A DNA stretch of 40,559 nucleotides from Bacteroidota bacterium (GTDB taxonomy: Bacteria; Bacteroidota; Bacteroidia; Palsa-948). Both the position numbers and the translations under genes were made by a program. The DNA lies in the NCBI GenBank assembly GCA_004297845.1, contig SCSP01000153.1, forward strand, positions 1-40,559. Direction: 5' to 3'. The notes under the pieces were generated by a model. The model saw nothing but the letters and a program-made list of their open reading frames with translations. It did no database searches and had not been told where the DNA came from. Positions within the stretch are counted from its first letter, which is position 1, and each line of letters begins with the position of its first letter. Below, in pieces: positions 3,781-22,062 of the stretch.

Positions 3781-3863
3781 GGCCCATTCGTATAGGGGTT
3801 AGGACGCCAGGTTTTTCACCCGAGGGGTGATCACCCTTCGGGTGGCATCCTTTGGCAACAGGT
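3781..3863 (+). pseudogene. Broken tRNA-Glu copy with a hairpin insertion in the anticodon loop
   Basis: 3781-3811 matches the intact tRNA-Glu at 4123-4153 with one mismatch (TATAG vs TCTAG). The anticodon loop is interrupted by 3817-3844 CACCCGAGGGGTGATCACCCTTCGGGTG. Homology resumes as CATCCT..GGCAACAGG (cf. CATCCTGGAAACAGG) and then runs into a GIY-YIG ORF. Confidence 0.75.
3817..3844. repeat. 28-nt near-perfect palindrome (one A/G asymmetry, G:U compatible in RNA)
   Basis: CACCCGAGGGGTGA/TCACCCTTCGGGTG; central 12-mer GGGTGATCACCC is a perfect palindrome; each half can also form its own hairpin (CACCC-GAG-GGGTG and CACCC-TTC-GGGTG). Confidence 0.9.
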
Positions 3864-4121
3864 ATGGAAAAGTATTATGTATATGTAGTTGAAAGTTTAA
3901 AAGACACAACAAGGTATATTGGATTTACATCGGATATTGAAAAGAGGATCAAGGAACATAATCATGGAAAAACAAAATCAATCAAACATAAAACCCCTTT
4001 TCAATTAGTTTATAAGGAGGAGTTTGAAAATAAAACAGAAGCAAGAAAACGAGAAATAAGATTAAAGAAGAATAGCTGGGAGCGAAAACAAGTGTATGAA
4101 AAAATTGATAGCAATAAATAA
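3864..4121 (+). CDS. GIY-YIG nuclease domain protein (small, UPF0213/YhbQ-like)
   Basis: MEKYYVYVVESLKDTTRYIGFTSDIEKRIKEHN...EARKREIRLKK carries the GIY-YIG signature (YVY...YIG), conserved Arg and Glu; stop at 4119-4121, 1 nt before the intact tRNA-Glu. A TTG start at 3852 is also possible. Confidence 0.85.
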   Translation: MEKYYVYVVESLKDTTRYIGFTSDIEKRIKEHNHGKTKSIKHKTPFQLVYKEEFENKTEARKREIRLKKNSWERKQVYEKIDSNK

Positions 4122-4122
4122 T

Positions 4123-4194
4123 GGCCCATTCGTCTAGGGGTTAGGACGCCAGGTTTTCATCCTGGAAACAGGGGTTCGATTCCCCTATGGGCTA
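4123..4194 (+). tRNA. tRNA-Glu (anticodon TTC)
   Basis: GGCCCAT/ATGGGCT acceptor stem, CCAGG-TTTTCAT-CCTGG anticodon arm, GGGGTTCGATTCCCC T arm. Confidence 0.95.
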
Positions 4195-4286
4195 CACTCA
4201 AAGCCGTTTGATTGCAAAATTAGGCGGCTTTCTGCTTTTTTAGCATAAATGTTTGCTTTATATCCAATAAATAGTTAAAGATATTC

Positions 4287-5321
4287 TTACAACGACTTAT
4301 TAATACTCTTTCCTCTTTTGAACTTAGGATTGAAGAGTGGCTGCCCTTCTATTCCCGAAAGCAAAATAGAAAATTCAAATGCGCCTCTTCCGTTCGTATA
4401 ATCGTTCAGGTAGGATGTGTTTATATCGTAGCTGAATGAAAAAATATGCTGCTCGTATTTCATTCCTGCCTGAATGATGAAAGCATCTTTCACGCGGTAG
4501 TTAAGTCCCAGAAGAACATCGTATTTAGTGTCTTGAATATGGTAAAATCCCACAGTGCCAATGTTTAATTCATGGGCTTTAGCCTGGTTCATGTACAAAA
4601 TCATAGGGGTGGTGCGAATCTCGTCTGTGATCTTGTAATCCGCACCCACTTGCATGACTAAGCGCATCGGGGTCTTGTCCTTTTCTATGTCGGCAAAGGA
4701 CTGGTTTGGTTTTGTAACATGATACACAGCAAAGCCTCCCCAGGGATGTGCCTGCCATTCTGTGTTTTTGTATTTGTAAAATACGCCCATGTTGGCATCC
4801 AGTTTGAGGTTACTGGTTTTAGCGAAATTTTCTCCGCTGGAAATGTTCTGGTTAAAACCTCCCGGAGCAGTTACATCGAATTGCTCATCGTAGGTGAAAT
4901 GATTGGGGTCAAAGCTCCGGTAAATAATTCCCAATTGAAGGCCAACTGAAAGATTGTGTGGCGTATTTGTTTCGTTGGAAATTTTATAAGCCGCAGAGGG
5001 CATAACCTGAATGGTGTTCAGTCCGCCTTTTCCGTTCCGGTTATGTATCAGGTATCCCCCGAAACCATATAGTTTATAAGGCATGTCGTAAGCAAGGTAG
5101 TATGTTGAGAAAGGCTTCACTCCCAGCGATCTCCACTGAGTGCGGTAGTCTGAATAAATACGGTAGTTAGACTTATCTCCAAAATAGATCCCGGTAAGTG
5201 CCGGATTAAAATAATGTGGAGTAGCATCAAACTGCGACAGGTGGAAGTCCTGCGCCTCACCCTCTATCCCTCTCCAAAGGAGAGAGATCAGTAGCATCAA
5301 ATTTTTTAGATATGATTTCAT
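4287..5321 (-). CDS. PorP/SprF family type IX secretion system membrane protein
   Basis: QDFHLSQFDATPHYFNPALTGIY...; typical PorP/SprF N-terminus and beta-barrel; located directly downstream of a giant CHU_C-domain protein. ORF track start is 5342; MKSYLKNLM (5321) makes the better signal peptide. Confidence 0.9.
   Translation of the reverse strand: MKSYLKNLMLLISLLWRGIEGEAQDFHLSQFDATPHYFNPALTGIYFGDKSNYRIYSDYRTQWRSLGVKPFSTYYLAYDMPYKLYGFGGYLIHNRNGKGGLNTIQVMPSAAYKISNETNTPHNLSVGLQLGIIYRSFDPNHFTYDEQFDVTAPGGFNQNISSGENFAKTSNLKLDANMGVFYKYKNTEWQAHPWGGFAVYHVTKPNQSFADIEKDKTPMRLVMQVGADYKITDEIRTTPMILYMNQAKAHELNIGTVGFYHIQDTKYDVLLGLNYRVKDAFIIQAGMKYEQHIFSFSYDINTSYLNDYTNGRGAFEFSILLSGIEGQPLFNPKFKRGKSINKSL
5255..5286 (+). 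repeat. Copy of GC-rich palindromic element within the porP signal-peptide coding region
   Basis: CCTCACCCTCTATCCCTCTCCAAAGGAGAGAG matches core CCTCACCCCCRRCCCCTCTCC-n-GGAGAGGGG. Confidence 0.7.
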
Positions 5322-5348
5322 GTTAATTATTTTTTTAACCACATCTTC

Positions 5349-5381
5349 CTCTCTCCCCTTCGGGGAGAGTTGGAGAGGGGT
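5349..5381 (-). repeat. Copy of GC-rich palindromic element in the giant gene-porP intergenic gap
   Basis: CTCTCCCCTTCGGGGAGAGTTGGAGAGGGGTC: 8-bp perfect stem CTCTCCCC-TTC-GGGGAGAG, fills most of the 43-bp gap (5343-5385). Confidence 0.7.
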
Positions 5382-5385
5382 CTTT

Positions 5386-8300
5386 TTACCTCAGTATAGT
5401 TACATCCCCACTCAACTCAATAGCTGTATCTCCATACGTAATTCCTTTCAGTATGAACACAAATCTTCCCTCAACTTGTTTTTTGCCTTTATAGGTGCCA
5501 TCCCATCCATCGCTCTGCGCTGTTGAATGAAACACTTCATTACCCCATTCGTTGTATATCCTCCAGTCCATTTCTTTGAGTGGCCCGCCTTTTACGTACA
5601 GAACATCATTGAAGCCATCTCCGTTTGGAGTGAAGGCTGAAGGCACAGCCACCACGTTGGTATTGAAGATAAAGGTATACTGCGCGGTATCGGGGCAACC
5701 GTTTGTGTTTGTTACGATCAACATCACGTTAAGAGTTCCATTCAGATCAAAGGTGTGCGTTGGGTGCTGGATGGTGTCAGTTTTTCCGTCATCAAAATTC
5801 CAGAGCCAGGTTATTGCGTTTGTAGAAAGGTCAGTGAATGCCACAGTTGCTCCGGCACTATACGTACCGCTCTGTGGGCTGAAATCAGCAATAGGGGCAG
5901 GAGTAAATATCAGGGTATCGGTAATGCTGTCATTACAACCACCCAATGTTACAATTTTAAGAGTTACAATGAATGTACCTGTGTTAACATAGGTGTGCGA
6001 TGGATTTTGAGTCGTGTTTAACGCACTTGCATCCCCAAAATTCCAACTCCAGGAGATTATGCTGTCACCACTTGCGATTATTGATGTGTCAGTGAACACT
6101 GCATTGAAATCGCAATCTGCAGTGAATGAGAATCCGGCAACAGCTCCTTTGGAAGGAGTTATGGTATCGATAAACGTAGAGGTGCAACCTGAATCAGAAG
6201 TTACGGTGAGCGAAACAATGTATACTCCTGTAGAATCATAATAGTGTACAGGTTTCTGCTGTGTGCTGGTGTTTGTATCTCCAAAGTTCCAGATCCAGGA
6301 TACAATGTTTCCGCTGCTAATTGTAGATGTGCTGCCGAAATACACAGAGTCAAGCGAGCAACTTGTAAGTACTGTGAATGATGCAACAGGAGTAGGATTA
6401 ATGTTTACCACCTGCATGGCTGTATCCGAACATCCAGATACACTTGTAACGATAAGCACCACTGTATCTTTTCCTGAGACTGTATAGGTGTGGGAGGTAT
6501 TTTGTACTGTATAGGTACCTCCTGCAATGGTCCAGTTCCACGAAGTGATGGTATCATTCAGGCTAAGAATTGAAGAGGTATCCGTGAATGTAATGGACTG
6601 TCCCACACAAATCTGAGGAACCGAGAACCCTGCAACGGGTTTTCTGCCGATGGTGATGGTCATGGAATCTTTCACAGCCAGGCATTGCCCGTTTCCGGTA
6701 GTTGTCAGGGTGAGTGTTACAAGACTTGTGTCGTTGCTTCCTGAAACATAAGTGGCATTCAAGGTGGAATTGTTCGGAGTAAATGTTCCGTTTCCGGAAG
6801 AGGTCCATTGACCGCCAGCAGCTGCTGAGTTGATAGTGCCATTCAGCGCAACGGTGGTGCCTCCGCAGACAGTAACATCAGCACCTGCATTTACAGTAGG
6901 AGCGTTCGTAATGGTTACTATCAATGAATCTTTAACCACACGGCATCCGTTTGTAGACGTGAGGAAAAGTTGTATGCTTCCTGCGGCAGTATCGGCAGCG
7001 CTTGGAATATAGGTTGCGTTCATTGCGGAAGAATCGGGAGCAGCAAATATTCCTGTTCCGCTGGTAGACCAATAACCGGTTGTTGAACCAACCGTAATAC
7101 TTCCGTTCAGAGAAACACTATCCTTGTTTGCGCATACAGTAATGTCGGAACCAGCAGCAACGACAGGAGCAGGTGTCATAGTAATCACAACGGTATCGGT
7201 TACCGCAATACAGTTTCCGAAATTTGTAGAGGTAAGAACAAGCGTTGTTCCTCCGGCAGCAGTGTCAGCGCTGCTTAAGATATAAGTTGCATTTAATGTA
7301 GATGCTGTTGGAATGAAAGTTCCTGTTCCAAGTGTTGTCCATACGCCTGTTGTTGCACCCCCACTCACCGATCCATTAAGTTGTGCGGAAACATTTCCAA
7401 AGCAGACAGGAATATCAGTCCCTGCATTTACAGCAGGTGCAGGAGTAAATGTGACGAGCATAGCATCATTCACGGCAGCGCAGCTTCCGTTACCGGTAGA
7501 AGTCAGGATCAGTATTACACTTCCGTTTGCGGAATCTAAAGGGGTTGTGACATAGGTGTTAGTGAGAACTGTATTTGGGGATTGGAAAGTACCTGTTCCT
7601 GAACTGCTCCATACTCCGCCAGTAGCAAACTGCACCGTGCCGCTGACATTTACTGTCGAATAATTATTCGAGCAGATAGATTGGTCTGCCCCCGCATTTG
7701 CAACCGGTCCGGGAGTTACAAATACGACCATCGTGTCCGTAGCGACAGGACATCCTCCGTTATTTGTAGAAGAAATGATCAGGAGGATATTTCCGGCAAG
7801 AGTGTCATTTATGTTTGGTGTGTAAGTAGCATTAAGTGTTGCAATACCTGAGAAAATTCCAACTCCATTAAGTGTTGACCAAATAACTGTGCCGGTTCCT
7901 CCGGTAATTGTTCCGCTGAGCTGCGCGGGATTGTTGGAGCACATGGTTTGATCCGTTCCCGCATTTACTACAGCCGGGATGGTAACGGAAACAGTTTGGG
8001 TGGAAGTCGGACTGACACAACCGTTGGCGATGGAAGTTACTGAAACGGAATAGGTGCCTGTCTCAGCGGTTGTAACGCTATTGATAGCCGGATTCTGCAA
8101 AGTTGAAGAGAAACTGTTTGGTCCGCTCCATACATAGGTTGTACCTGCAATTGTACTGGCAGTCAAGCTCAGATTATCCCCTATGCATAACGGGCTGTTG
8201 CTTCCCGCTGTCGGAGCAACTGGAAGCGGATTGATTGTTACAGATGTTGTCCCGGCAGGGCTTACACAACTTCCTATCTGAACGAAGACAGAATAAATTC

Positions 8301-11300
8301 CATCACCGGCTGTTGTAACACTTGTAATGGTGGGGTTTTGTGTTGAAGCAGAGAAACTGTTTGGCCCGCTCCAGTTATAAGTGGCTCCAACAATTGTACT
8401 TGCAGTTAAACTAAGTTCAGATCCCGAACAAACAGGAGTGTTGCTTCCCGGTGTCGGAGCTGCAGGAGGAGGAGCAACGATCACGGAGGTTGTGCCTTCA
8501 GGGCCCGGACAGCCAGCAACAGTCACCGATACAGAATAGGTTCCGGCATCGGCAGTAGAAGCTCCTGCAATGGTTGGATTCTGTAAAGCAGAAGTGAAGC
8601 CATTGGGTCCGTTCCATGAATAAGTTGCTCCGGGAATTGTATTTGCAGTTAAGTTCAAATTATCTCCAATACACAAAGGACTGTTGTTGCCGGCAGCAGG
8701 AGCAACAGGAATAGGATTCACAGTTACAGAAGTTGTTCCGGCTGGACCTGTACAACCGTTTTCAGTAGCAATAACAGAATAAATTCCGGAAGCAGCCGTA
8801 GTAGCCGCGAGGATCACAGGATCCTGAAGCGTAGAAGAAAAACTATTGGGTCCCGTCCATGAATAGGTAGAACCACCAATGGTACTTGCTGTTAAACTCA
8901 CATCATTTCCCGAACAGAGAGGGGTATTATTTGATGCCACCGGAGCAGCAGGAGTTTGGTTAACAGTTATTGAAACTGTTCCTTCAGGGCTGGTAGGACA
9001 ACCCGGTACAGTAGCAGTGATCGAATAGGTTCCCGAAGCAGCGGTTGTTGCACCCGCGATAGTTGGGTTTTGTGAAACGGAAACAAAACTATTTGGTCCG
9101 CTCCATGAATAAGTTGCGCTGGCAATTGTATTTGATGTAAGGTTTAATGTTTGTCCGGAACAAAGAGGTGAATTACTTCCTGTGGTTGGCGCAGCAGGAG
9201 GAGGATTAATAATTACAGCGGTAGTTGCCACAGGGCCATTACAACCATTCTCTGTCGCAAATACCGTATAGGTGCCGGCATCTGCGGAAGAAATATTAAT
9301 TATAACAGGATTTTGAACAGTTGATGAGAAGCCATTTGGCCCGGCCCAGGAATATGTGGAGCTGCCAATAGTGCTTGCGGTTAAGCTCAGATCAAATCCT
9401 ATACAGGCGGGGCTGTTGCCGCCTGCGACAGGTGCAACAGGGGTTTGAAAAATTGTAACGGATGTAGTGGATGCCGCGCTCAGGCAGCTTCCGATCTGAA
9501 CGAAGACAGAATAAATTCCATCCGCGGCAGTTGTAACAGGTGTTATAGTTGGATTCTGCGTTGTTGCCGTGAAACTATTAGGTCCGCTCCAGGTATAAGT
9601 TGCCCCGACTATTGTATTGGCAGTTAAGCTCAGCTCGGTTCCGGAACAAACAGGCGTATTGCTTCCAGGCGTTGGGGGCGCAGGAGGCGGAGCAACAATT
9701 AAAGCGGTGGTTCCTTCAGCGCCCAGACATCCTGCCACAGTAACAGAAACAGAATAGGTTCCTGCCTCGTCAGTAGTAACTGCTGCGATGGTTGGATTTT
9801 GCGAAGCAGAAGAAAAACCATTCGGCCCGTTCCATGAATAAGTTGCCCCTGAAATTGTATTTGCAGTCAGGGTCAGATTATCGCCAATACACAAGGGTCC
9901 GTTGTTGCCGGCAACCGGAGCGGCAGGAAACGCATTTACAGTTACAGTAGTTATTCCCGGAAGGCTCGCACACCCGTTTTCAATGGCGGTAACGGAATAA
10001 GTGCCGCTCTGGGCCGTGGTTGCCCCGGTAATTACAGGATCCTGTGTGGTGGAAGAGAAGCTACTTGGCCCTGCCCATTGATACGTAGAACCACCCACTG
10101 TACTTGCCGTTAAACTAAGATCGCTTCCGGAACAGAACGGACTGTTGTTGGTTGCAGTTGGAGCAGTAGGAGTCAGATTGACCGTTACCGAAACTGTTCC
10201 GGCACCACCGGCACATCCCGTAACTGTTACAAAAACTGAATAGTCTCCCACAGCTGCCGGAGTAACTGCACCTATAGTTGGGTTTTGTAAAGTAGAAGAA
10301 AAGCCGTTTGGTCCGTTCCATGTATATGTTGCACTGGCAAATGTATTTGCGGTCAAACTCAAGGTTTGTCCGGTACAGACCGGGCTGTTACTTCCTGCAG
10401 TGGGAGATGTTGGAGGAGTGTTCACGATTACCGTGGTTGTTCCCGCAGGACCTGAACACCCATTTACCGTAGCGATCACAGAATAAACACCTCCCTCTGC
10501 GGTGGATACACCGGTTATAACAGGATTTTGTGTAGCATCTGTAAAGCTGTTAGGACCGGTCCAGGCATACGTAGCTCCGGGTAAAGTGCCCGCAGTGAGC
10601 GAAAGGTCAAAGCCTACGCAAATCGGCCCGTTATTGCCGGCAACAGGAGCAGAAGGAGTTTGATCGATGGTAACCGAAGTTGTTCCTGCAAGGCTTGTAC
10701 AGCCAAGTGCAGTTGCAGTAACAGCATAGAGGCCGGTTGCAGCAGTGGTTACACTTGAGATAATCGGGTCTTGAGAGGTAGAAGTAAACGAATTCGGCCC
10801 GCTCCAGCTATAGGTTGCACCTGCAACTGTACTCGCAGTCAGGCTCAACATTTGTCCGGAACAAACAGGAGAGTTGCTTCCTGCTGTTGAAGTAGCGGGG
10901 ATCGGATTCACAACAACACTGGTGGTACCTGCAGGCCCACTGCATCCGCTAACACTTGCTGTAACGGAGTAGATTCCTGCAGCCGCTAATGTTATTCCTA
11001 CAATAGTAGGATTTTGAGATATAGAGACAAAGCTATTGGGCCCAAACCATGAATACGTTGCTCCTGCGATGGTGCTTGCAGTCAGGCTCAGCGTGGTGCC
11101 TTCACAAAGAGGACTGTTGTTTCCGGCTACAGGTGCAGCAGGAAGAGAATTAATTGTTACTGATACTATTCCGGCAGATCCTGTACAGCCATTTTCAATA
11201 GCAACCACAGAATAAATTCCTGCATTAGCAGGCGTAGCGGCAGCTATAACGGGATCCTGTGTGGTAGAAGTGAAACCAGCGGGCCCGGTCCACGAATAAG

Positions 11301-14300
11301 TCGAACCGCCAACAGTACTTGCAGTTAAACTCAGATCAATTCCCGCACAGATCGGAGAGTTGCTTCCAGGTGTTGGCGCTGCAGGAGTTTGAAAGACAGT
11401 TACAGATACAGTTCCGGCAGGGCTGAGCGCGCAACCCGGAACAAATGCAGTTACTGAATAGGTGCCTTCAGCCAACGTGGTAACACTTCCCATAGTAGGA
11501 TTTTGCGAGACAGAAGTAAAAGTATTGGGGCCAGTCCAGGAATAAATGGTAGCGCTGGGGATTGTAGAGGCGGTCAAACTCAATGTTGTTCCTGAGCAAA
11601 CCGTTAAGTCACTGCCTGTTGTCGGAGCCGGAGGTGGAGGATTAACAATAACACTAGTTGTTGCATCGGTACCTGTACATCCGGCTGCAGATGTTGTATT
11701 CACGGTATATGTTCCTGCCTCTGCCGCACCTACCCCTGTGAGTACAGGGTTCTGGGCGGTGGAAGTAAAGGCATTTGGCCCGCTCCATGCATAGGTAGTT
11801 CCTGTACCACTTGCGGTCAGGCTAATGTCGCCACCAATACAGGCCGGAGAGTTACTTCCTGGCGTTGGAGCAGCCGGGGTTTGGTTGATAACTACAGAAA
11901 TGGTTCCGGTTGGACTGGTAGCGCAACCCGGAACAGTGGCAGTAACCGAATAAGTGCCGGAAGCCAATGTGCTAACACTTCCTATAGCAGGATCCTGGAT
12001 AGTAGAAGAAAAGCTGTTGGGTCCTGTCCAATTATATGATGCACCCGCAATGGTACTTGCAGTTAAACTTAATGTGTTTCCCGAGCATATCGGACCGTTG
12101 CTTCCTGTTGTTGGAGCAGGAGGAGGAGGATTAATAGTAACCGATGTTGTGCCGGCCGATCCGGTGCATCCGGCAACCGTTGCGGTCACAGAATAGGTAC
12201 CTGCATCAGCAGTTGTAAATCCGGCAACGGCAGGATTTTGTGATGTAGAAGTGAAACTGCTCGGTCCGTTCCAGAAATAGGAAGCTCCGCCAATAGTACT
12301 TGCAGTTAATGAAAGTGTGTTTCCCACGCAAACCGGGCTGTTGCTTCCGGCCGTTGGAGTTGCTGGTTGAGGAGCTACAGTTACAACTGCTGTGCCTGCC
12401 GGACCTACACAGCCATTTTCAGTAGCTATCACAGAATATGTACCGGCATCCGCAACACCCGCCCCGGCAAGGGTAGGATTTTGTGAAGGAGAAGAGAAGA
12501 GGTTTGGACCGGTCCATGCATAAGTGGAGCCGCCAACTGTACTTGCCGTTAAGCTTAATGTGTTACCAATGCAAAGCGGACTATTACTTCCTGCAACCGG
12601 AGCTGCCGGAGTAGGGTTCACGGATACAGTAACTGCAGTACGCGGCCCCGTGCAGCTTAAAACGGTTGTCTGCACATAATAAGTGGTAGTGGCAGCCAGA
12701 ATAGGAGTAGTGTAACTTGCGCCTGTTTGTAAAAGTGTTCCTGCAACCGGAGCATCATACCATTCATAGGTTCCTCCGGGAGCAGTAGCCGTAAGCGTTG
12801 CATCAAATCCTTCGCAAATAGCAGTTCCGGATGCTGTTGGTGCAGCGGGGATCGGATTAATTTTAATTATAACATCGTTGGACACTGCTCCGCAGGAGTT
12901 CGCAGGGTCATTGGTGGTCAATGTAAGTGTAACGGTTCCTGCGGCAACTTCTCCCGCACTGGGAGTATACACTGCGGTAGGCGTTGAACTGCCAGGGACA
13001 AAGCCTCCTGCTCCTCCACTCCATGTTGAACTGGAAGCTGATCCTCCGAAAGCACCGGCCAGTGTAGTAGAAAAGCCGGCACAAATTGTTTGGTCGGGAC
13101 CTGCATTTACAGTTGCGGCAGGGTCAATGGTAACGGTGTTAGTGGCTGTTACTGTAAAGCATCCTGCAGCAGTGATGGTATTTGTTATTGTATAGGTTCC
13201 GGCTGTAGAGGCGCTTAAATTGATCTCGCCCGTGGAGGTGCTGACAAATGATATCCCGGCAGGGACCGAACCAAATACTCCTGCACTTCCTCCGCCATCA
13301 AAAATAGGAGAAGGATTAGCGCTGGTTTTACAGAAAGGGCCATCGTAATGAAAATCTGCGACCCCACTGACGGTGATGGTGATCACCTGGCTGCTTGAAG
13401 AAGGGCATGGACCGCTGGTAGTAAAAGTTATTGTGTAAGTATTTGCAGGACTTGCTGCCAGATTTACTTCGCCCGTGCTTGTGCTGACAAAAACTAATGC
13501 GACCGGAGAAGCGCTGAATGTTCCGGGAAAACCTCCGGTAATGATTGGCGTTGTAGTTCCGCTCTGGCAATAGGTTCCGGCAGAATAAGAGAAGGAAGGA
13601 TCGTCTGTGGGCGTGATGGTTAACGTAAAAGCATTTCCTGTGCTTGCGCATCCGTTACCATTGGTAACAAATAAAGTTCCTGTGTAAGTTCCCGCCACCA
13701 CTCCGGCCGCCACAGGCACGGTGATGGGACTTGCAGGCAGCGCAGTAGAACCCACATCCACCAGTCCTGCCGCATTTGCAGCCGCGTTCCAGTCGATGGT
13801 ATAATTAGTAGGAGCATTGGTGACAGCACCATAAGTTAAAGTAGAACTCTGTGCGCCCGCATTAAAACAAACTGCAGCAGCCGTAGCGGCCGGAGCGATG
13901 GTTGGCAGTGGATTGATCGTTAATGTAAACGCATTTCCGGTAGAAGCACATCCGTTTCCATTGGTTACAAATAAAGTTCCTGTGTAAGTCCCTGCCACAA
14001 CCCCCGCAGCGACAGGTACCGTGATCGGACTTGCAGGAAGAGCAGTACTTCCGACATCCACCAGTCCTGCCGCATTGGCAGCCGCATCCCAGTCGATGGT
14101 ATAATTGGTAGGCACACCGGTGGTGGCACCGTATGCTAAGGTTGAACTCTGCGCGCCCGCATTGAAACAAACAGCCGCAGCCGTGGCAGCCGGAGCAATG
14201 GTGGGCAGCGGATTGATCGTTAAGGTAAAAGCGTTCCCCGTGCTTGCACATCCGTTTCCATTGGTTACAAATAAAATTCCCGTGTAAGTTCCTACTGCAA

Positions 14301-17300
14301 CCCCCGCAGCCACAGGCACTGTGATGGGGCTTGCAGGCAGCGCGGTAGAACCCACATCCACCAGTCCTGCCGCGTTGGCAGCCGCATTCCAGTCGATGGT
14401 ATAATCTGTGGGCGCACCTGTAGTGGCACCGTACGTTAAAGTAGAACTCTGCGCTGCGGCATTAAAGCAAACATTCGCAGCGGTAGCAGCCGGAGCGATG
14501 GTTGGCAGGGGATTGATGGTGAGTGTAAATACATTTCCGGTAGAAGCGCATCCGTTCCCATTGGTCACAAATAAAGTTCCTGTGTAAGTTCCCCCGGCAA
14601 CACCCGCAGCGATGGGCACTGTGATGGGGCTTACAGGCAGTGCAGTAGAACCTACATCCACCAGTCCTGCCGCATTGGCAGCCGCGTTCCAGTCGATGGT
14701 ATAATTAGTAGGCACACCGGTGATGGCACCGTATGTTAAGGTAGAACTCTGTACGGCAGCATTAAAACAAACTGCCGCAGCCGGAGCAGCCGGAGCGATG
14801 GTTGGCAGAGGATTGATGGTTAGTGTAAAAGCATTTCCTGTGGAAGTACATCCATTCGTTACATATAAAGTTCCGGTGTACGTTCCCGCTGCAACTCCCG
14901 CTGCAATCGGTACGGTGATGGGACTGGCAGGAAGGGCAGTAGAACCCACATCCACCAGTCCTGCCGCATTTGCAGCCGCATTCCAATCTATGGTGTAATT
15001 TGTGGGCGCACCGGTAGTGGCCCCGTATGCTAAGGTTGAACTCTGAGCTGCTGCATTAAAACAAACGGCAGCTGCAGTCGCAGCGGGAGCAATGGTTGGC
15101 AGAGAATTGATCGTCAGGGTAAAAACATTTCCTGTGGAAGCACATCCGTTTCCATTGGTTACATATAAAGTTCCCGTGTAAGTTCCTACTGCAACCCCCG
15201 CAGCCACAGGCACGGTGATAGGGCTTACAGGAAGGGCAGTGGAACCCACATCCACCAGTCCTGCGGCATTTGCAGCCGCGTTCCAGTCGATGGTATAATT
15301 GGTAGGAGCACCGGTAGTGGCGCCATAAGTTAAAGTAGAACTCTGAGCCCCCGCGCTAAAGCAAACTGCTGCTGCGGTAGCCGCGGGAGCAATGGTTGGC
15401 AGAGGATTTATAGTTAATGTAAAAGCATTTCCTGTACTTGCGCATCCATTACCGTTGGTTACAAATAACGTTCCTGTATACGTTCCCGCAGCAACTCCCG
15501 CAGCAATGGGCACGGTGATGGGACTTGCAGGAAGTGCAGTTGATCCCACATTGACAAGCCCGGCAGCGAGAGCAGCGGCATTCCATGTGATGGTGTAATT
15601 AGTAGGAGCATTGGTGACAGCACCGTATGTTAACGTAGAACTCTGCGCGCCTGCATTAAAACAAACTGCCGCAGCCGTAGCAGCCGGAGCAATGGTTGGC
15701 AGGGGATTGATCGTTAGGGTAAATGCATTTCCTGTGCTTGCGCATCCATTACCATTCGTTACATATAAAGTCCCGGTGTATGTTCCCGCCACCACTCCTG
15801 CCGCCACAGGCACGGTGATAGGACTTGCCGGAAGGGCCGTAGAACCCACATCCACCAGTCCTGCCGCATTTGCAGCCGCGTTCCAGTCAATCGTATAATT
15901 GGTAGGAGCACCGGTGGTGGCGCCATAAGTTAAAGTAGAACTCTGCGCGCCTGCATTGAAACAAACTGCCGCAGCCGTAGCAGCCGGAGCGATGGTAGGC
16001 AGAGGATTGATCGTCAGGGTAAAAGCATTACCGGTAGAAGCACATCCGTTTCCATTGGTAACAAATAAAGTTCCTGTGTAAGTTCCGGCAGCAACTCCCG
16101 CAGCGACAGGCACGGTGATGGGGCTTACAGGAAGCGCAGTAGAACCCACATCCACCAGTCCTGCCGCATTTGCAGCCGCATTCCAGTCTATGGTGTAATT
16201 TGTGGGCACACCGGTGGTGGCACCGTATGCTAAGGTTGAACTCTGCGCGCCCGCATTAAAACAAACTGCCGCAGCCGTAGCAGCCGGGGCGATGGTTGGC
16301 AGCGGATTGATCGTTAATGTAAACGCATTTCCGGTAGAAGCACATCCGTTCCCATTGGTCACAAATAAAGTTCCGGTATAAGTTCCCGCCCCCACCCCCG
16401 CTGCAATCGGTACGGTGATTGGACTGGCAGGAAGGGCAGTTGATCCCACATCCACCAGTCCTGCCGCATTGGCAGCCGCGTTCCAGTCAATGGTATAATT
16501 AGTAGGAGCATTGGTAACAGCACCGTATGTTAAGGTAGAACTTTGTGCAGCCGCATTAAAACAAACCGATGCAGCCGTGGCAGCCGGAGCAATGGTTGGC
16601 AGAGGATTGATCGTAAGAGTAAATGCGTTTCCTAAACTTGCACAACCTGTTGCGCTCGTTACAAATAAAGTTCCTGTGTATGTTCCGGCAGCAACCCCCG
16701 CAGCGACAGGCACCGTGATGGGGCTTGCAGGAAGCGCAGTTAATCCCACATCCACCAGTCCTGCGGCATTGGCAGCCGCGTTCCAGTCGATGGTATAATT
16801 GGTAGGCACACCGGTGGTGGCACCGTATGCTAACGTAGAACTCTGTGCAGCCGCATTAAAACAAACCGCAGCAGCAGTCGCAGCCGGAGCAATTGTTGGC
16901 AGTGGATTGATCGTTAAAGTAAAAGCATTTCCTGTGCTTGCACAACCGTTTCCATTGGTTACATATAAAGTTCCGGTGTACGTTCCGGCAGCAACCCCCG
17001 CAGCCACAGGCACTGTGATGGGGCTTGCAGGCAGCGCGGTAGAACCCACATCCACCAGTCCTGCCGCATTTGCAACCGCGTTCCAGTCAATGGTATAATT
17101 GGTAGGAGCATCGGTGACAGCTCCGTATGTCAACGTAGAACTCTGCGCGCCCGCGCTGAAACACACTGACGCAGCCGCAGCAGCCGGGGCGATGGTTGGC
17201 AGTGGATTGATCGTCAGGGTAAAAGCATTACCGGTAGAAGCACATCCGTTACCATTGGTAACAAATAAAGTTCCCGTGTATGTTCCCACTGCAACTCCCG

Positions 17301-20300
17301 CAGCGACAGGCACTGTGATGGGACTTGCAGGAAGGGCAGTACTTCCCACATCCACCAGTCCAGCGGCATTTGCAGCCGCGTTCCAGTCAATGGTATAATT
17401 GGTAGGAGCATTGGTAACAGCACCGTATGTTAAAGTAGAACTCTGCGCGCCTGCATTAAAACAAACTGCCGCAGCCGTGGCAGCCGGGGCGATGGTTGGC
17501 AGTGGATTGATCGTTAATGTAAACGCATTTCCGGTAGAAGCACATCCGTTACCATTGGTAACAAATAAAGTTCCTGTGTAAGTTCCCGCCACCACTCCTG
17601 CAGCCACAGGCACCGTGATCGGACTTGCAGGCAGCGCAGTTGATCCCACATCCACCAGTCCTGCGGCATTTGCAGCCGCGTTCCAGTCAATGGTATAATT
17701 GGTAGGAGCATTAGTAACAGCACCATATGTTAAAGTAGAACTCTGTGCGTCAGCATTAAAACAAACTGCCGCAGCCGCAGCAGCCGGGGCGATGGTTGGC
17801 AGCGGATTGATCGTCAGGGTAAAAGCATTTCCTGTGCTGGCGCATCCGTTACCATTGGTTACAAATAAAGTCCCCGTGTATGTTCCGGCAGCAACCCCTG
17901 CAGCCACAGGTACCGTGATGGGACTTGCAGGCAGCGCGGTAGAACCCACATCCACCAGTCCTGCGGCATTTGCAGCCGCATTCCAGTCGATGGTATAATT
18001 AGTCGGAGCATTGGTGACAGCACCGTATGCTAACGTAGAACTCTGCACAGCCGCATTAAAACATACGGCAGCAGCAGTAGCAGCCGGAGCAATGGTTGGC
18101 AGGGGATTTATAGTTAATGTAAAAGCATTACCGGTAGAAGCACATCCGTTCCCATTGGTCACAAATAAAGTTCCGGTGTATGTTCCCGCAGCAACACCTG
18201 CAGCAATCGGCACCGTGATGGGACTTGCAGGCAGCGCGGTAGAACCCACATCCACCAGTCCTGCGGCATTTGCAGCCGCGTTCCAGTCGATGGTATAATT
18301 AGTCGGAGCATTGGTGACAGCACCGTATGTTAAGGTAGAACTCTGCGCGCCTGCATTAAAACAAACGGCAGCAGCAGTCGCAGCCGGAGCAATGGTTGGC
18401 AGGGGATTAATGGTGAGTGTAAATGCATTTCCTAAACTTGCGCATCCGTTCCCATTCGTTACATATAAAGTTCCGGTATATGTTCCTGCCACAACTCCCG
18501 CAGCAACAGGCACGGTGATGGGACTTGCAGGCAGCGCGGTAGAACCAACATCCACCAGGCCTGCAGCATTGGCAGCCGCGTTCCAGTCGATAGTATAATT
18601 AGTAGGCACACCGGTGGTCGCACCATAAGTTAAAGTAGAGCTCTGCGCACCCGCGCTAAAGCAAACTGCTGCTGCTGTAGCCGCAGGAGCAATAGTAGGC
18701 AGGGGATTGATGGTGAGTGTAAATGCATTCCCGGTAGAAGCACATCCGTTACCATTCGTTACATACAAAGTTCCGGTGTATGTTCCAGCAGCAACACCTG
18801 CAGCGATCGGTACGGTGATAGGACTTGCAGGAAGTGCAGTAGAACCCAAATCCACCAGTCCTGCCGTATTTGCAGCCGCATTCCAGTCGATGGTGTAATT
18901 GGTAGGGGCATTGGTAACAGCCCCGTATGTTAAGGTAGAGCTCTGGGCGCCTGCACTGACGCATGCGTTTGCCGCAGTCGCAGCCGGAGCAATGGTTGGC
19001 AGTGGATTAACCGTTACTGTAACGGAGTTAGGCCCTCCGGGACAACCGTTATCATTGGCAATAACTGTATAAACGGTGGTTATAGTTGGTGAAGCAACAG
19101 GATTTGCAGAAGTAGTATTATTCAACCCTGCAGAAGGTGACCATACATAATTGGTAGAACCCGAGCCGCCAGTGGGACTTCCACCCAATGTTGTGCTTTG
19201 ACCTATACATATGGATGTATTTGCCCCAGGATCTAACACAAAAGCACTGGGGCGTCCCGCAGGAATTAGAGTTGCATTAAGGTACATTCTCCTCCCGTTG
19301 AAATAGTTAATAGTTGCTCCGACATAATCGTGCCCGCTTAGATAAAATACATTCCCTCCAACTGAATCACTGGGTGCAAGATGCACAGCGGTAGCTGCAA
19401 CAGTAGTTGTTGGCAGAGGGTCTGAGAGGCCATTGTAAGTTTCCGCATTGAAAGCAGAGGTGGCGCTGGGCCAGAAGCGCTCGATAGTTCCGTTCTCATT
19501 AGCAACGGCTCCTTCAAACTGATTGAACGCAAGATCAGGATTCGAATAGGTCATCGTTACCGAGCCGGCATCAAAACTGATACCCCTCGTGGTTTGAAAA
19601 TGCCCTCCACTCGGCTGATGGTTCTCATACAGATCGATACCCGCGCACTGGGCTAAAAAGTTTCCGCCTTCATTAACAAATTTTACAATATTATCTACCG
19701 AATTTATATCCTCATTAGTGGTAAAGTCCCAATGCGCTTCAGAACAAAAAGAATAACATTCCACAAGTCCCGGAAAATTGCCTGCGTTTTGAGTAAAATA
19801 ATTTGTACCAGCTACTAAACCTGCCTCGGCCATGTATGTTTCTTGCACTGCCTCATATCCACCGTTAGTAAATATCGCAATCTTCGGACGGTGATTCAAT
19901 GTATATCTCACATTCAGATTTTCATCACCGGCGAGTTTAAATACCGCCACCTGGTTATATCCTACTCCCTGCGCGGTATACGTGCTGATAACCTGAAGTG
20001 CGGTTAGCCCGGAACCATAATACGACCTGTTGATCCAGGTGCTGTCAATAATAAATGCACTTGCTTTAAAAGTTACGGCTGCTGAAGCAACGGCAGTCGG
20101 CAATACCCTTGAAGCGTTTGCTGTAAAGTCCGCAGCATCTTTTGCTTTACCCGAAAGGATAACCCACTTTACCGGAATATCATTCATCAATAAAGCATGG
20201 ACCATGCCGTATGCTTTTAAATTAAATGGAGCAACCACAGCCTGGTTGGTATTGTCCATGGGTATCACATAGGAATTTCTTGGAATGGCTTCCACATTGG

Positions 20301-22062
20301 CCGGAGGACCAGGAACATCCGGAGTATAACAAGCGGCACTTACTATGGTGCGTGTACCGGCAGGATTCGGACCAACCATGTCTGATATTGTGGTTGCATC
20401 CATAACAAAAGAAGTCATGGAAGCATCCAAGCGATCACCTGCGTTTGCAGTTGCAGGAACGTCATACACCAGATAAAAGTAATAATCACCCGAGCCAAGA
20501 TCTAGTTTTTGCGAACCGGTAATTGTAAATGCGCCATTGGGATTATTTACAGTTCCAAACGGCTGTATGTTGTCCGTAATTAAAGGAGAGGAAATTAATT
20601 GCTCGTTGTAATATAGTTTTGCGGACGCGATATTTACGGCTGGGTTTTGAGAAAAACCCACATCCCCGACAGTGCTGAAATCAAACTGAGTAATGGTTGG
20701 AGGAGGGCATCCTCCCGAAATATTGATCCTTATCCTGAGGATAACCGCATTTCGACTGGATTCGCAGTTGCGGTTAATACTTTGGGTAGTGTATTGCCCT
20801 ATGTCACTTACATTATATATTGATGCCGTATTGGCAAACATAAACCCGAATGATTCGGAAGAAAGAGGTTGAAATGGGGTGCTGTTTATAAGAAAAGTTC
20901 CGACTGTTCCTGTACCTGTTCTTAATAAGTCTCCGCTTCCGGCAGCAGTTGCCCGTATCTGGAAACTATTAAAAAAGAGCTCGTCAAAATTTCCACCGGC
21001 TGCATCCGTGGTTAATGTTACGGTTATAGAAGTGGTGGTGACAGAGGTTAATGCAAGCGCAGTAATATCGCTGCCTCCTCCATTTTTAGTAACGGTATGG
21101 GCTGCTCCCGTATTGAATTCAAACCCGGTTGGGAGTGTCAGAATAATGGTAGCACCTGCCTGGCTGTTGTTAAAATCAGTCATTAACCGTTCCTTGAGAG
21201 AAAAACTCACGGTTTGATAAGCGCTGGGATAAGCTCCAGTGCAAAAAGACAGATCGGCAAAGGGTGTGATGTTGGAAGGGGTTGTATAGGTAATAATGAG
21301 CAATCCCGCTGCTCCGTTACCGCCCGTATGATCTGTACCATCAGGCACAAAAGCACCGCTTCCTCCGCCACCGTACACATTGCCGGTATTGCCATTGCCT
21401 TCTGAATTATTTCTGCCGGCACCCCCGGCTCCTCCTCCGGTAGTTGTTCCCGGGCCCGCTGTAATGCCGACAGCATTTCCGCCCACTCCGGTTGAACCTC
21501 CTCCTCCACCCCCTCCTCCTGAAATACCGCCAGCCCCGCTTCCATCGGCTCCATTTCCACCTGCAAACTTCACATCACCAATACTGGCAGCGCTCGATCC
21601 GATACCGCCTAAGGAAACTCCCGCGTTTGGCGCTGCTCCCCCGGCACCCCCTTCAGCAAACACGGTTCCGACAGCGCTGAACCAGGAAGGATTTCCCTGG
21701 GCTCCCGCTGATGTAGTGCCGGTTTTGGTAGCTCCTACATTAACAGAGTAGGAGGTCAATGATGTAACTGCAACTGATTTTTTTGCATAAGCTCCTCCGG
21801 CACCGCCACCGCCACCATATAAAGTGGTAGTTGTCGTACCGCCTCCCGATCCTCCGCCTCCCCAGCATTCAACAGTAGCTGTGGAAACCCCCGGAGGACA
21901 GACCCATGAACTTGAAGAAGTGAATAAAACTGTAGTGGTTTGCCCCCACAACAAATTAAAAGAAGAAAGAAAAATAAATACAGTAAGGAAAACAAAACAG
22001 CAAATTTTTACCCTGGAAAGGCTGGCCAAAAGAAAAAGAAACTTTTTGTAAAGTTTATGCAT
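5386..22062 (-). CDS. Giant (5558 aa) secreted repeat adhesin-like protein with gliding motility-associated C-terminal (CHU_C / T9SS type B) domain
   Basis: Single uninterrupted ORF; N-terminal hydrophobic signal, Gly-rich domain, internal ThuA/GATase-like segment, four repeat classes, and C-terminus VPSAFTPNGDGFNDVLYVKGGPLKEMDWRIYNEWGNEVFHSTAQSDGWDGTYKGK... Confidence 0.93.
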   Translation of the reverse strand: MHKLYKKFLFLLASLSRVKICCFVFLTVFIFLSSFNLLWGQTTTVLFTSSSSWVCPPGVSTATVECWGGGGSGGGTTTTTLYGGGGGAGGAYAKKSVAVTSLTSYSVNVGATKTGTTSAGAQGNPSWFSAVGTVFAEGGAGGAAPNAGVSLGGIGSSAASIGDVKFAGGNGADGSGAGGISGGGGGGGGSTGVGGNAVGITAGPGTTTGGGAGGAGRNNSEGNGNTGNVYGGGGSGAFVPDGTDHTGGNGAAGLLIITYTTPSNITPFADLSFCTGAYPSAYQTVSFSLKERLMTDFNNSQAGATIILTLPTGFEFNTGAAHTVTKNGGGSDITALALTSVTTTSITVTLTTDAAGGNFDELFFNSFQIRATAAGSGDLLRTGTGTVGTFLINSTPFQPLSSESFGFMFANTASIYNVSDIGQYTTQSINRNCESSRNAVILRIRINISGGCPPPTITQFDFSTVGDVGFSQNPAVNIASAKLYYNEQLISSPLITDNIQPFGTVNNPNGAFTITGSQKLDLGSGDYYFYLVYDVPATANAGDRLDASMTSFVMDATTISDMVGPNPAGTRTIVSAACYTPDVPGPPANVEAIPRNSYVIPMDNTNQAVVAPFNLKAYGMVHALLMNDIPVKWVILSGKAKDAADFTANASRVLPTAVASAAVTFKASAFIIDSTWINRSYYGSGLTALQVISTYTAQGVGYNQVAVFKLAGDENLNVRYTLNHRPKIAIFTNGGYEAVQETYMAEAGLVAGTNYFTQNAGNFPGLVECYSFCSEAHWDFTTNEDINSVDNIVKFVNEGGNFLAQCAGIDLYENHQPSGGHFQTTRGISFDAGSVTMTYSNPDLAFNQFEGAVANENGTIERFWPSATSAFNAETYNGLSDPLPTTTVAATAVHLAPSDSVGGNVFYLSGHDYVGATINYFNGRRMYLNATLIPAGRPSAFVLDPGANTSICIGQSTTLGGSPTGGSGSTNYVWSPSAGLNNTTSANPVASPTITTVYTVIANDNGCPGGPNSVTVTVNPLPTIAPAATAANACVSAGAQSSTLTYGAVTNAPTNYTIDWNAAANTAGLVDLGSTALPASPITVPIAAGVAAGTYTGTLYVTNGNGCASTGNAFTLTINPLPTIAPAATAAAVCFSAGAQSSTLTYGATTGVPTNYTIDWNAAANAAGLVDVGSTALPASPITVPVAAGVVAGTYTGTLYVTNGNGCASLGNAFTLTINPLPTIAPAATAAAVCFNAGAQSSTLTYGAVTNAPTNYTIDWNAAANAAGLVDVGSTALPASPITVPIAAGVAAGTYTGTLFVTNGNGCASTGNAFTLTINPLPTIAPAATAAAVCFNAAVQSSTLAYGAVTNAPTNYTIDWNAAANAAGLVDVGSTALPASPITVPVAAGVAAGTYTGTLFVTNGNGCASTGNAFTLTINPLPTIAPAAAAAAVCFNADAQSSTLTYGAVTNAPTNYTIDWNAAANAAGLVDVGSTALPASPITVPVAAGVVAGTYTGTLFVTNGNGCASTGNAFTLTINPLPTIAPAATAAAVCFNAGAQSSTLTYGAVTNAPTNYTIDWNAAANAAGLVDVGSTALPASPITVPVAAGVAVGTYTGTLFVTNGNGCASTGNAFTLTINPLPTIAPAAAAASVCFSAGAQSSTLTYGAVTDAPTNYTIDWNAVANAAGLVDVGSTALPASPITVPVAAGVAAGTYTGTLYVTNGNGCASTGNAFTLTINPLPTIAPAATAAAVCFNAAAQSSTLAYGATTGVPTNYTIDWNAAANAAGLVDVGLTALPASPITVPVAAGVAAGTYTGTLFVTSATGCASLGNAFTLTINPLPTIAPAATAASVCFNAAAQSSTLTYGAVTNAPTNYTIDWNAAANAAGLVDVGSTALPASPITVPIAAGVGAGTYTGTLFVTNGNGCASTGNAFTLTINPLPTIAPAATAAAVCFNAGAQSSTLAYGATTGVPTNYTIDWNAAANAAGLVDVGSTALPVSPITVPVAAGVAAGTYTGTLFVTNGNGCASTGNAFTLTINPLPTIAPAATAAAVCFNAGAQSSTLTYGATTGAPTNYTIDWNAAANAAGLVDVGSTALPASPITVPVAAGVVAGTYTGTLYVTNGNGCASTGNAFTLTINPLPTIAPAATAAAVCFNAGAQSSTLTYGAVTNAPTNYTITWNAAALAAGLVNVGSTALPASPITVPIAAGVAAGTYTGTLFVTNGNGCASTGNAFTLTINPLPTIAPAATAAAVCFSAGAQSSTLTYGATTGAPTNYTIDWNAAANAAGLVDVGSTALPVSPITVPVAAGVAVGTYTGTLYVTNGNGCASTGNVFTLTINSLPTIAPAATAAAVCFNAAAQSSTLAYGATTGAPTNYTIDWNAAANAAGLVDVGSTALPASPITVPIAAGVAAGTYTGTLYVTNGCTSTGNAFTLTINPLPTIAPAAPAAAVCFNAAVQSSTLTYGAITGVPTNYTIDWNAAANAAGLVDVGSTALPVSPITVPIAAGVAGGTYTGTLFVTNGNGCASTGNVFTLTINPLPTIAPAATAANVCFNAAAQSSTLTYGATTGAPTDYTIDWNAAANAAGLVDVGSTALPASPITVPVAAGVAVGTYTGILFVTNGNGCASTGNAFTLTINPLPTIAPAATAAAVCFNAGAQSSTLAYGATTGVPTNYTIDWDAAANAAGLVDVGSTALPASPITVPVAAGVVAGTYTGTLFVTNGNGCASTGNAFTLTINPLPTIAPAATAAAVCFNAGAQSSTLTYGAVTNAPTNYTIDWNAAANAAGLVDVGSTALPASPITVPVAAGVVAGTYTGTLFVTNGNGCASTGNAFTLTITPTDDPSFSYSAGTYCQSGTTTPIITGGFPGTFSASPVALVFVSTSTGEVNLAASPANTYTITFTTSGPCPSSSSQVITITVSGVADFHYDGPFCKTSANPSPIFDGGGSAGVFGSVPAGISFVSTSTGEINLSASTAGTYTITNTITAAGCFTVTATNTVTIDPAATVNAGPDQTICAGFSTTLAGAFGGSASSSTWSGGAGGFVPGSSTPTAVYTPSAGEVAAGTVTLTLTTNDPANSCGAVSNDVIIKINPIPAAPTASGTAICEGFDATLTATAPGGTYEWYDAPVAGTLLQTGASYTTPILAATTTYYVQTTVLSCTGPRTAVTVSVNPTPAAPVAGSNSPLCIGNTLSLTASTVGGSTYAWTGPNLFSSPSQNPTLAGAGVADAGTYSVIATENGCVGPAGTAVVTVAPQPATPTAGSNSPVCVGNTLSLTASTIGGASYFWNGPSSFTSTSQNPAVAGFTTADAGTYSVTATVAGCTGSAGTTSVTINPPPPAPTTGSNGPICSGNTLSLTASTIAGASYNWTGPNSFSSTIQDPAIGSVSTLASGTYSVTATVPGCATSPTGTISVVINQTPAAPTPGSNSPACIGGDISLTASGTGTTYAWSGPNAFTSTAQNPVLTGVGAAEAGTYTVNTTSAAGCTGTDATTSVIVNPPPPAPTTGSDLTVCSGTTLSLTASTIPSATIYSWTGPNTFTSVSQNPTMGSVTTLAEGTYSVTAFVPGCALSPAGTVSVTVFQTPAAPTPGSNSPICAGIDLSLTASTVGGSTYSWTGPAGFTSTTQDPVIAAATPANAGIYSVVAIENGCTGSAGIVSVTINSLPAAPVAGNNSPLCEGTTLSLTASTIAGATYSWFGPNSFVSISQNPTIVGITLAAAGIYSVTASVSGCSGPAGTTSVVVNPIPATSTAGSNSPVCSGQMLSLTASTVAGATYSWSGPNSFTSTSQDPIISSVTTAATGLYAVTATALGCTSLAGTTSVTIDQTPSAPVAGNNGPICVGFDLSLTAGTLPGATYAWTGPNSFTDATQNPVITGVSTAEGGVYSVIATVNGCSGPAGTTTVIVNTPPTSPTAGSNSPVCTGQTLSLTANTFASATYTWNGPNGFSSTLQNPTIGAVTPAAVGDYSVFVTVTGCAGGAGTVSVTVNLTPTAPTATNNSPFCSGSDLSLTASTVGGSTYQWAGPSSFSSTTQDPVITGATTAQSGTYSVTAIENGCASLPGITTVTVNAFPAAPVAGNNGPLCIGDNLTLTANTISGATYSWNGPNGFSSASQNPTIAAVTTDEAGTYSVSVTVAGCLGAEGTTALIVAPPPAPPTPGSNTPVCSGTELSLTANTIVGATYTWSGPNSFTATTQNPTITPVTTAADGIYSVFVQIGSCLSAASTTSVTIFQTPVAPVAGGNSPACIGFDLSLTASTIGSSTYSWAGPNGFSSTVQNPVIINISSADAGTYTVFATENGCNGPVATTAVIINPPPAAPTTGSNSPLCSGQTLNLTSNTIASATYSWSGPNSFVSVSQNPTIAGATTAASGTYSITATVPGCPTSPEGTVSITVNQTPAAPVASNNTPLCSGNDVSLTASTIGGSTYSWTGPNSFSSTLQDPVILAATTAASGIYSVIATENGCTGPAGTTSVTVNPIPVAPAAGNNSPLCIGDNLNLTANTIPGATYSWNGPNGFTSALQNPTIAGASTADAGTYSVSVTVAGCPGPEGTTSVIVAPPPAAPTPGSNTPVCSGSELSLTASTIVGATYNWSGPNSFSASTQNPTITSVTTAGDGIYSVFVQIGSCVSPAGTTSVTINPLPVAPTAGSNSPLCIGDNLSLTASTIAGTTYVWSGPNSFSSTLQNPAINSVTTAETGTYSVSVTSIANGCVSPTSTQTVSVTIPAVVNAGTDQTMCSNNPAQLSGTITGGTGTVIWSTLNGVGIFSGIATLNATYTPNINDTLAGNILLIISSTNNGGCPVATDTMVVFVTPGPVANAGADQSICSNNYSTVNVSGTVQFATGGVWSSSGTGTFQSPNTVLTNTYVTTPLDSANGSVILILTSTGNGSCAAVNDAMLVTFTPAPAVNAGTDIPVCFGNVSAQLNGSVSGGATTGVWTTLGTGTFIPTASTLNATYILSSADTAAGGTTLVLTSTNFGNCIAVTDTVVITMTPAPVVAAGSDITVCANKDSVSLNGSITVGSTTGYWSTSGTGIFAAPDSSAMNATYIPSAADTAAGSIQLFLTSTNGCRVVKDSLIVTITNAPTVNAGADVTVCGGTTVALNGTINSAAAGGQWTSSGNGTFTPNNSTLNATYVSGSNDTSLVTLTLTTTGNGQCLAVKDSMTITIGRKPVAGFSVPQICVGQSITFTDTSSILSLNDTITSWNWTIAGGTYTVQNTSHTYTVSGKDTVVLIVTSVSGCSDTAMQVVNINPTPVASFTVLTSCSLDSVYFGSTSTISSGNIVSWIWNFGDTNTSTQQKPVHYYDSTGVYIVSLTVTSDSGCTSTFIDTITPSKGAVAGFSFTADCDFNAVFTDTSIIASGDSIISWSWNFGDASALNTTQNPSHTYVNTGTFIVTLKIVTLGGCNDSITDTLIFTPAPIADFSPQSGTYSAGATVAFTDLSTNAITWLWNFDDGKTDTIQHPTHTFDLNGTLNVMLIVTNTNGCPDTAQYTFIFNTNVVAVPSAFTPNGDGFNDVLYVKGGPLKEMDWRIYNEWGNEVFHSTAQSDGWDGTYKGKKQVEGRFVFILKGITYGDTAIELSGDVTILR
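5640..6640 (-). repeat. Four PKD-like domain repeats of the giant protein
   Basis: WxWxFGD-type motifs: VSWIWNFGDTNTST, ISWSWNFGDASALN, ITWLWNFDDGKTD, plus ITSWNWTIAGGTY. Confidence 0.8.
6640..7975 (-). repeat. Class C repeats: five ~85-aa units
   Basis: Repeated (V)NAG(T/A)D...C...L(N/S)G(T/S)I...W.(T/S)SGTGTF.P..STLNATY...DTAAG...LTSTNNG.C..V.D... Confidence 0.85.
7980..12606 (-). repeat. Class B repeats: 19 units of ~80 aa (~243 bp), Ig-like
   Basis: Repeated APTAGSNSPxCxGxxLSLTASTIxGATYSWxGPNSFxSTxQNPxIxxVTTAxAGTYSVxATxxGCxGPAGTTSVTVNPxP; counted 19 copies in the translation. Confidence 0.9.
13614..19009 (-). repeat. Class A repeats: 18 tandem units of 300 bp / 100 aa (one unit 6 bp shorter)
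   Basis: Repeated NPLPTIAPAATAAAVCFNAGAQSSTLTYGAVTNAPTNYTIDWNAAANAAGLVDVGSTALPASPITVPVAAGVAAGTYTGTLFVTNGNGCASTGNAFTLTI; counted 18 copies; span agrees with 18x300-6. Confidence 0.95.

Follow-up and report, generated by a model that had tools for sequence, protein, structure and literature searches.

A double-hairpin element and a small GIY-YIG nuclease gene at a broken tRNA-Glu copy: a probable homing-like parasite of bacterial tRNA genes

The components of the locus described here are already known one by one: GIY-YIG homing enzymes, REP-like palindromes, Rickettsia palindromic elements and tRNA genes as insertion sites; what appears to be new is their combination, for which we found no description. 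Double-hairpin elements, a term used in papers on fungal mitogenomes, consist in fungal mitochondria of two tandem GC-rich hairpins and are considered mobile. The Rickettsia palindromic elements and the CGTC repeats have been known for years, with no mobilising enzyme known for them. CGTC repeats are treated in a paper by Di Nocera and co-workers. According to that paper these repeats, Rickettsia elements included, are without a dedicated transposase and are present in Bacteroidetes (PMC3733652). As for the nuclease, Dunin-Horkawicz 2006 mentions neither a linkage to tRNA genes nor palindromes (PMC1564403), and the literature searched, which left aside preprints and most subscription papers, contained no matching description of tRNA-linked GIY-YIG/palindrome units in bacteria. 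The locus seems to represent a large and apparently undescribed family of bacterial tRNA-gene parasites.

The window, i.e. the whole stretch of 40,559 nucleotides that was analysed, belongs to a Bacteroidota genome that is 98.5% complete (G000); its relatives and its type IX secretion genes point to this phylum. It presents in order the 5' part of a tRNA-Glu gene, a double hairpin, a tRNA remnant, a GIY-YIG gene and an intact tRNA-Glu gene:

3781..3815, plus strand: spare 5' part of tRNA-Glu(UUC), covering nt 1-35 and breaking off within the anticodon (36-nt match with 97% identity to the intact gene; ancestral upstream region common to the empty site L213)
3816..3845, no strand: 30-bp double-hairpin element TCACCCGAGGGGTGATCACCCTTCGGGTGG between tRNA nt 35 and 36 (insert of the same length in purD, empty in relatives; same site and design in L006, L007, L008, L031 and L181; covariation)
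3816..3830, plus strand: hairpin 1, TCACCC-GAG-GGGTGA (helix 1 of alignment A2, 97.9% of cells paired, both-side changes at 4 pairs)
3831..3845, plus strand: hairpin 2, TCACCC-TTC-GGGTGG (helix 2 of alignment A2, 99.0% of cells paired, both-side changes at 4 pairs)
3846..3862, plus strand: decayed remnant of the tRNA 3' side from nt 36, CATCC...CAACAGG (direct comparison with the intact tRNA CATCCTGGAAACAGG)
3864..4121, plus strand: GIY-YIG nuclease gene, 85 aa, UPF0213/SLX1-like (PF01541, alignment A1, nearest solved structures)
4123..4195, plus strand: intact tRNA-Glu(UUC) (ARAGORN; Rfam RF00005, 63.1 bits; own-genome search)

The palindrome lies where the preliminary description had placed it, in the anticodon loop of a broken tRNA, with nt 1-35 of tRNA-Glu at 3781-3815 and nt 36 onward from 3846. 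The intact gene and the broken piece are the only tRNA-Glu matches in this nearly complete genome, and the broken copy has no recognizable cloverleaf, ARAGORN and Rfam detecting in the window a single tRNA, the intact one. A group I intron in the anticodon loop was rejected: the insert has 30 bp as against at least 200 nt, Rfam matches only the intact tRNA, and the 3' half is decayed. Farther along the window, a 5558-aa ORF (5386-22062, minus strand) is rich in nearly identical repeats of about 95 aa in tandem (NPLPTIAPAATAAAVCFNAG...), and its C-terminus is of the kind usual in large surface proteins of type IX secretion. At 5255-5385, the facing GC-rich repeats CCCTCTCCAAAGGAGAG and CTCTCCCCTTCGGGGAGAGTTGGAGAGGGG surround the start of a PorP/SprF gene and may be another dispersed palindromic family.

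The sequence CACCCGAGGGGTGATCACCCTTCGGGTG at 3817-3844 has halves that are reverse complements save one G:U, around a two-fold symmetric centre, GGGTGATCACCC; the motif has one match in the window and none in 100 shuffles, and is thus no product of chance. The 28-nt self-pairing palindrome reported earlier is thus present as read, but its full-length pairing is not conserved, and the unit has to be extended by a T and a G to 30 bp (3816-3845), because the insertion in purD is exactly 30 bp long, as is the insert of L007. What is conserved is the tandem-hairpin fold that had been proposed beside it. Among 16 aligned 30-bp elements, two hairpins leave 98.4% of cells paired, with compensatory changes on both sides at 8 of 12 pairs, none of 500 shuffles being as good and slid versions of the fold all being far worse; the full-length palindrome pairs 86.1% of cells and was rejected as the conserved unit. 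In elements with unlike stems, the two hairpins form in 21 of 22 and the full-length pairing in 1 of 22. The 51 distinct elements of Patescibacteria, scored at the four stem pairs that the search pattern left free, give 189 Watson-Crick, 1 GU and 14 other pairs within hairpins, against 111, 9 and 84 of 204 for full-length pairing at the same positions. Since G:U pairs are nearly absent and the elements occur on either strand of ORFs, the constraint would seem to act on DNA rather than RNA. Elements start with TCNNCC or CCNNCC and end with GGNNGA or GGNNGG, and their loop triplets vary freely (GAG/TTC, AAA/GTA, GAA/TTC, AGA/TTG), which disposes of the suggestion that the TTC loop stands for the Glu anticodon. 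In L031 (680-724), a small extra hairpin (GTCCTTTGGAC) lies within the loop of the second hairpin, flanked by two GCA triplets, which gives the impression of one hairpin inserted in the loop of another.

Evidence for insertion comes from relatives. In a genome of the same genus (G187, locus L213), the end of the orthologous upstream gene and the promoter region run straight into an intact tRNA-Glu, and neither a broken tRNA-Glu copy nor a nuclease gene is present at this orthologous site; the window sequence on the upstream side can be aligned with L213 as far as tRNA nt 35, and the upstream gene also matches beside tRNA-Glu in L215-L218. Upstream of the tRNA in L214 (G012), another tRNA-Glu copy is broken by a palindrome inserted after nt 12, and no nuclease ORF accompanies it. 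A second copy of the element in the genome of the window, CCACCCAAAGGGTGGTCACCCGTAGGGTGA, is found in frame in purD (L005:793-822), independent of the tRNA copy. The purD genes of relatives, including that of G187, are short of exactly those 30 bp, with no visible target duplication, and the element therefore moves on its own. The same genome harbors a further in-frame copy, TCCGCCACAGGCGGACCCGCCTCTGGCGGG, in an ORF on contig C48, and two more copies, recovered by pattern search, on C264 and C342. Dispersed copies reach 28 per genome in Patescibacteria and Omnitrophota, where a reversed control pattern had 0 matches, and many of them lie within ORFs, encoding SAxGGSAxGG. Palindromic inserts are in frame in unrelated ORFs (purD, the C48 ORF, L157-L159, L165 and L173-L179), and the occurrence of the same element in purD and many other ORFs speaks against the idea that it is a structured RNA derived from tRNA. 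In L174, L179 and L151 (G000:C48), in-frame double hairpins lie near the C-terminal ends of ORFs resembling type IX secretion sorting domains, and add SAxGGSxSGGK-like peptides.

The arrangement recurs widely at tRNA genes. A search for related loci recovered this design at tRNA-Glu genes of further Bacteroidota (L006, L007) and of Patescibacteria (L008 among others), and on tRNA-Lys in L012, L015 and L018, as well as in Omnitrophota (L021). The nuclease profile A1, built mostly from tRNA-linked members, matches 133 of 388 Bacteroidia genomes (E<=1e-15) and 190 of 287 Patescibacteria genomes (E<=1e-12). A tRNA gene lies at most 300 bp from the nuclease ORF in 110 of 133 loci, a few of which were fetched twice, and the nearest tRNA is always on the strand of the ORF; another 30 Patescibacteria loci include 25 with a tRNA gene nearby, 24 of them on the same strand. 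Among the 109 loci with a nearby tRNA, 99 also contain an incomplete duplicate of that tRNA; the ORF precedes the intact tRNA in 48 of these and follows it in 51. A palindrome splits the partial copy in 65 cases, with the tRNA sequence resuming on its far side, the inserts falling in the D loop (26), the anticodon loop (23), the T loop (5), junctions (3) and stems (8). Hairpin loops receive 54 of the 65 against 38% expected (p=2e-13, uncorrected for relatedness). Single longer palindromes (CCTGCCTGCCGGCAGGCAGG and similar), possibly akin to the double hairpins, also interrupt copies, mostly of Arg, Leu and Ala tRNAs. Some loci are arrays: in L006 (570-1191), four tandem tRNA-Glu 5' halves, each with a double hairpin, precede one intact tRNA-Glu, and one of them carries the nuclease ORF, the ORF-less copies looking non-autonomous by their sequence; L128, L048, L115, L043, L065, L097 and L109 hold two or three near-identical units of nuclease, palindrome and tRNA part with one intact tRNA adjoining.

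The 85-aa protein belongs to the GIY-YIG superfamily (PF01541, E=3.5e-16). Its conserved nuclease residues are Y7, Y18/G20, R28, H32 and E64, among which Y7, Y18, G20, R28 and E64 are invariant in A1, and its nearest solved structures are 1zg2 and 1ywl, followed by SLX1. Two other GIY-YIG genes of the genome (L002 and L003, 31-33% identity) lie away from tRNA genes, so that linkage to tRNA is not general to GIY-YIG genes. On a tree of 126 nucleases, whose individual forks are weak because the columns are few, the target tRNA clusters clearly (48 changes versus 91.5 when shuffled, 0/200); the Glu group requires 6 changes versus 19.8, and Bacteroidota and Patescibacteria are intermingled in its main cluster. 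Specific-site insertion into alleles lacking the element, as in homing elements, is apparent both from this clustering and from the empty site L213.

In the window and in most tRNA loci the nuclease gene lies between the tRNA repeats and outside the palindrome, and the limits of the mobile unit are therefore not strictly defined. The ORF has an inverted repeat on either side in L185, L190, L192, L200, L201, L205 and L207 (repeats of 10 bp in L192 and of 19-22 bp in the other six loci), and the resulting units of 281-315 bp look, by their sequence, like complete mobile units; those of L190 and L205 align end to end at 71% in unrelated flanks. The L190 unit (1454-1764) lies directly past the 3' end of a 16S rRNA gene. 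That of L205 (1450-1764) lies in the 5' part of a Patescibacteria rnpB (RNase P RNA), whose 5' end is not cleanly aligned by the Rfam model, and a second, ORF-less palindromic insert (CCCCGCACATAAAAGAT...) occupies another helix of the same rnpB gene at about 1860-1990.

Taken together, these data suggest that the locus is probably a homing-like GIY-YIG element parasitising tRNA genes, of which the double hairpin would be the mobile palindromic module. The nuclease would nick or cut the DNA of the tRNA gene where a hairpin loop is extruded, and repair would copy the unit in. Part of the tRNA would be duplicated in the process, leaving the host a working gene while the element spreads in a homing-like manner. 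The preliminary description had considered the palindrome as a cleavage site; this survives only in altered form, in that the element probably marks, and would seal, the former cut site in the spare tRNA copy. It may also keep the direct repeats from recombining. Judging from the locus layout, the nuclease and the tRNA would be cotranscribed from the ancestral promoter. One apparently working tRNA copy stays intact beside each GIY-YIG unit, and could be spared if recognition depends on sequences to either side of the tRNA end, which the ORF now separates. The strategy would be that of a parasite that invades an essential gene and leaves an intact copy.

The link to the GIY-YIG gene, already proposed in the preliminary description, is borne out beyond the tRNA loci. 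Among the 287 Patescibacteria genomes, the nuclease is found in 50 of 53 genomes with the dispersed double hairpin and in 140 of 234 others (OR 11, p=2.5e-7, uncorrected for kinship), a match at E<=1e-12 being absent in 3 of the 53; in Bacteroidia it is found in 6 of 6 element-positive genomes versus 127 of 382 (p=0.0015, three of the six being in one genus and kinship uncorrected). These figures bear on an alternative that we consider unlikely, namely that the double hairpins are REP/REPIN-like and moved by Y1 (RAYT) transposases, the nuclease being merely a neighbour. REPs are indeed palindromic dimers that can sit within genes (PMC3733652), the genome of the window has 8 PF01797 (Y1) hits, 7 of them over the cut-off, and small 6-bp/3-nt hairpins surround one of its Y1 (RAYT-like) transposase genes (L231:1290-1898), which is possibly a separate REP system. 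However, direct reading of the ends of the listed elements revealed neither a GTAG nor a CGTC tag, Y1 is absent in 8 of 31 element-positive genomes, and the element-rich G395, G525, G558, G647 and G629 have no Y1 hit. Moreover, the association with Y1 in the same 287 genomes is weak (OR 2.1, p=0.02) and loses significance when nuclease-positive genomes are taken alone (p=0.19), whereas that with the nuclease holds in Y1-negative ones (p=4e-4).

It is very unlikely that we are dealing with ordinary tandem tRNA duplication, with palindromes accruing in unselected fragments by mutation or replication slippage and without a dedicated enzyme. Duplication of tRNA genes is common and palindromic DNA is prone to templated repair, but the fragments are accompanied by a specific nuclease in the same orientation, the inserts are clean, with no tRNA bases lost, and favour tRNA hairpin loops, the nuclease phylogeny is target-specific across phyla, and a 30-bp copy was cleanly gained in purD. 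Least probable is that the palindrome exerts control at the RNA level from within the nuclease mRNA leader, be it as a processing signal or as the attenuator envisaged earlier: it lies just upstream of the ORF, the 106-nt leader has a predicted stable fold (z=-2.6) and hairpins of some kind recur at that place, but the ORF is downstream of the intact tRNA in 51 of 99 tRNA-linked loci, with the palindrome then mostly after it, many unrelated palindromes occupy the same place, copies of the design are ORF-less (the tandem units of L006), ORF-internal (purD) or intergenic, and the compensatory changes avoid G:U (1 GU versus 189 WC).

A broader reading of the homing-like element is more tentative, and possible rather than probable: a new class of mobile elements, in which small GIY-YIG nucleases home into hairpin loops in the DNA of RNA genes (tRNA, rnpB, near 16S rRNA) and the same enzyme spreads non-autonomous palindromes through genomes, even in frame in proteins. 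If true, it would provide at least some of the orphan palindromic repeats with the enzyme they lack. The candidate nuclease that the locus offers is small and testable, and its target, the hairpin loop of a tRNA gene, is compact. The family would also explain many fragments of tRNA genes, together with a set of Bacteroidota and Patescibacteria genes of the 'GIY-YIG nuclease family'.

With the free-standing GIY-YIG homing endonucleases of the I-TevI type, the family shares the catalytic domain, the apparent spread as a unit and the fidelity to a target across distant hosts; it differs in that the protein is a single catalytic domain of 85 aa, closest to UPF0213/SLX1 and devoid of a DNA-binding arm, and in having neither intron nor intein, the host gene being spared by duplication and a palindrome marking the insertion point. 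REP/REPIN sequences with RAYT (Y1) are likewise short dispersed palindromic dimers, sometimes within genes, whereas here the GTAG tag is missing, the statistical partner is a GIY-YIG nuclease rather than Y1, and tRNA hairpin loops are preferred. Rickettsia palindromic elements and CGTC repeats are also palindromic, in frame in ORFs and dimers with unlike stems; here the unit is 30 bp, made of two 6-bp/3-nt hairpins without a CGTC tag, and tied to tRNA-borne GIY-YIG genes. Finally, the two tandem hairpins recall the fungal mitochondrial double-hairpin elements, but the present ones are bacterial, with an associated nuclease and tRNA-gene targeting.
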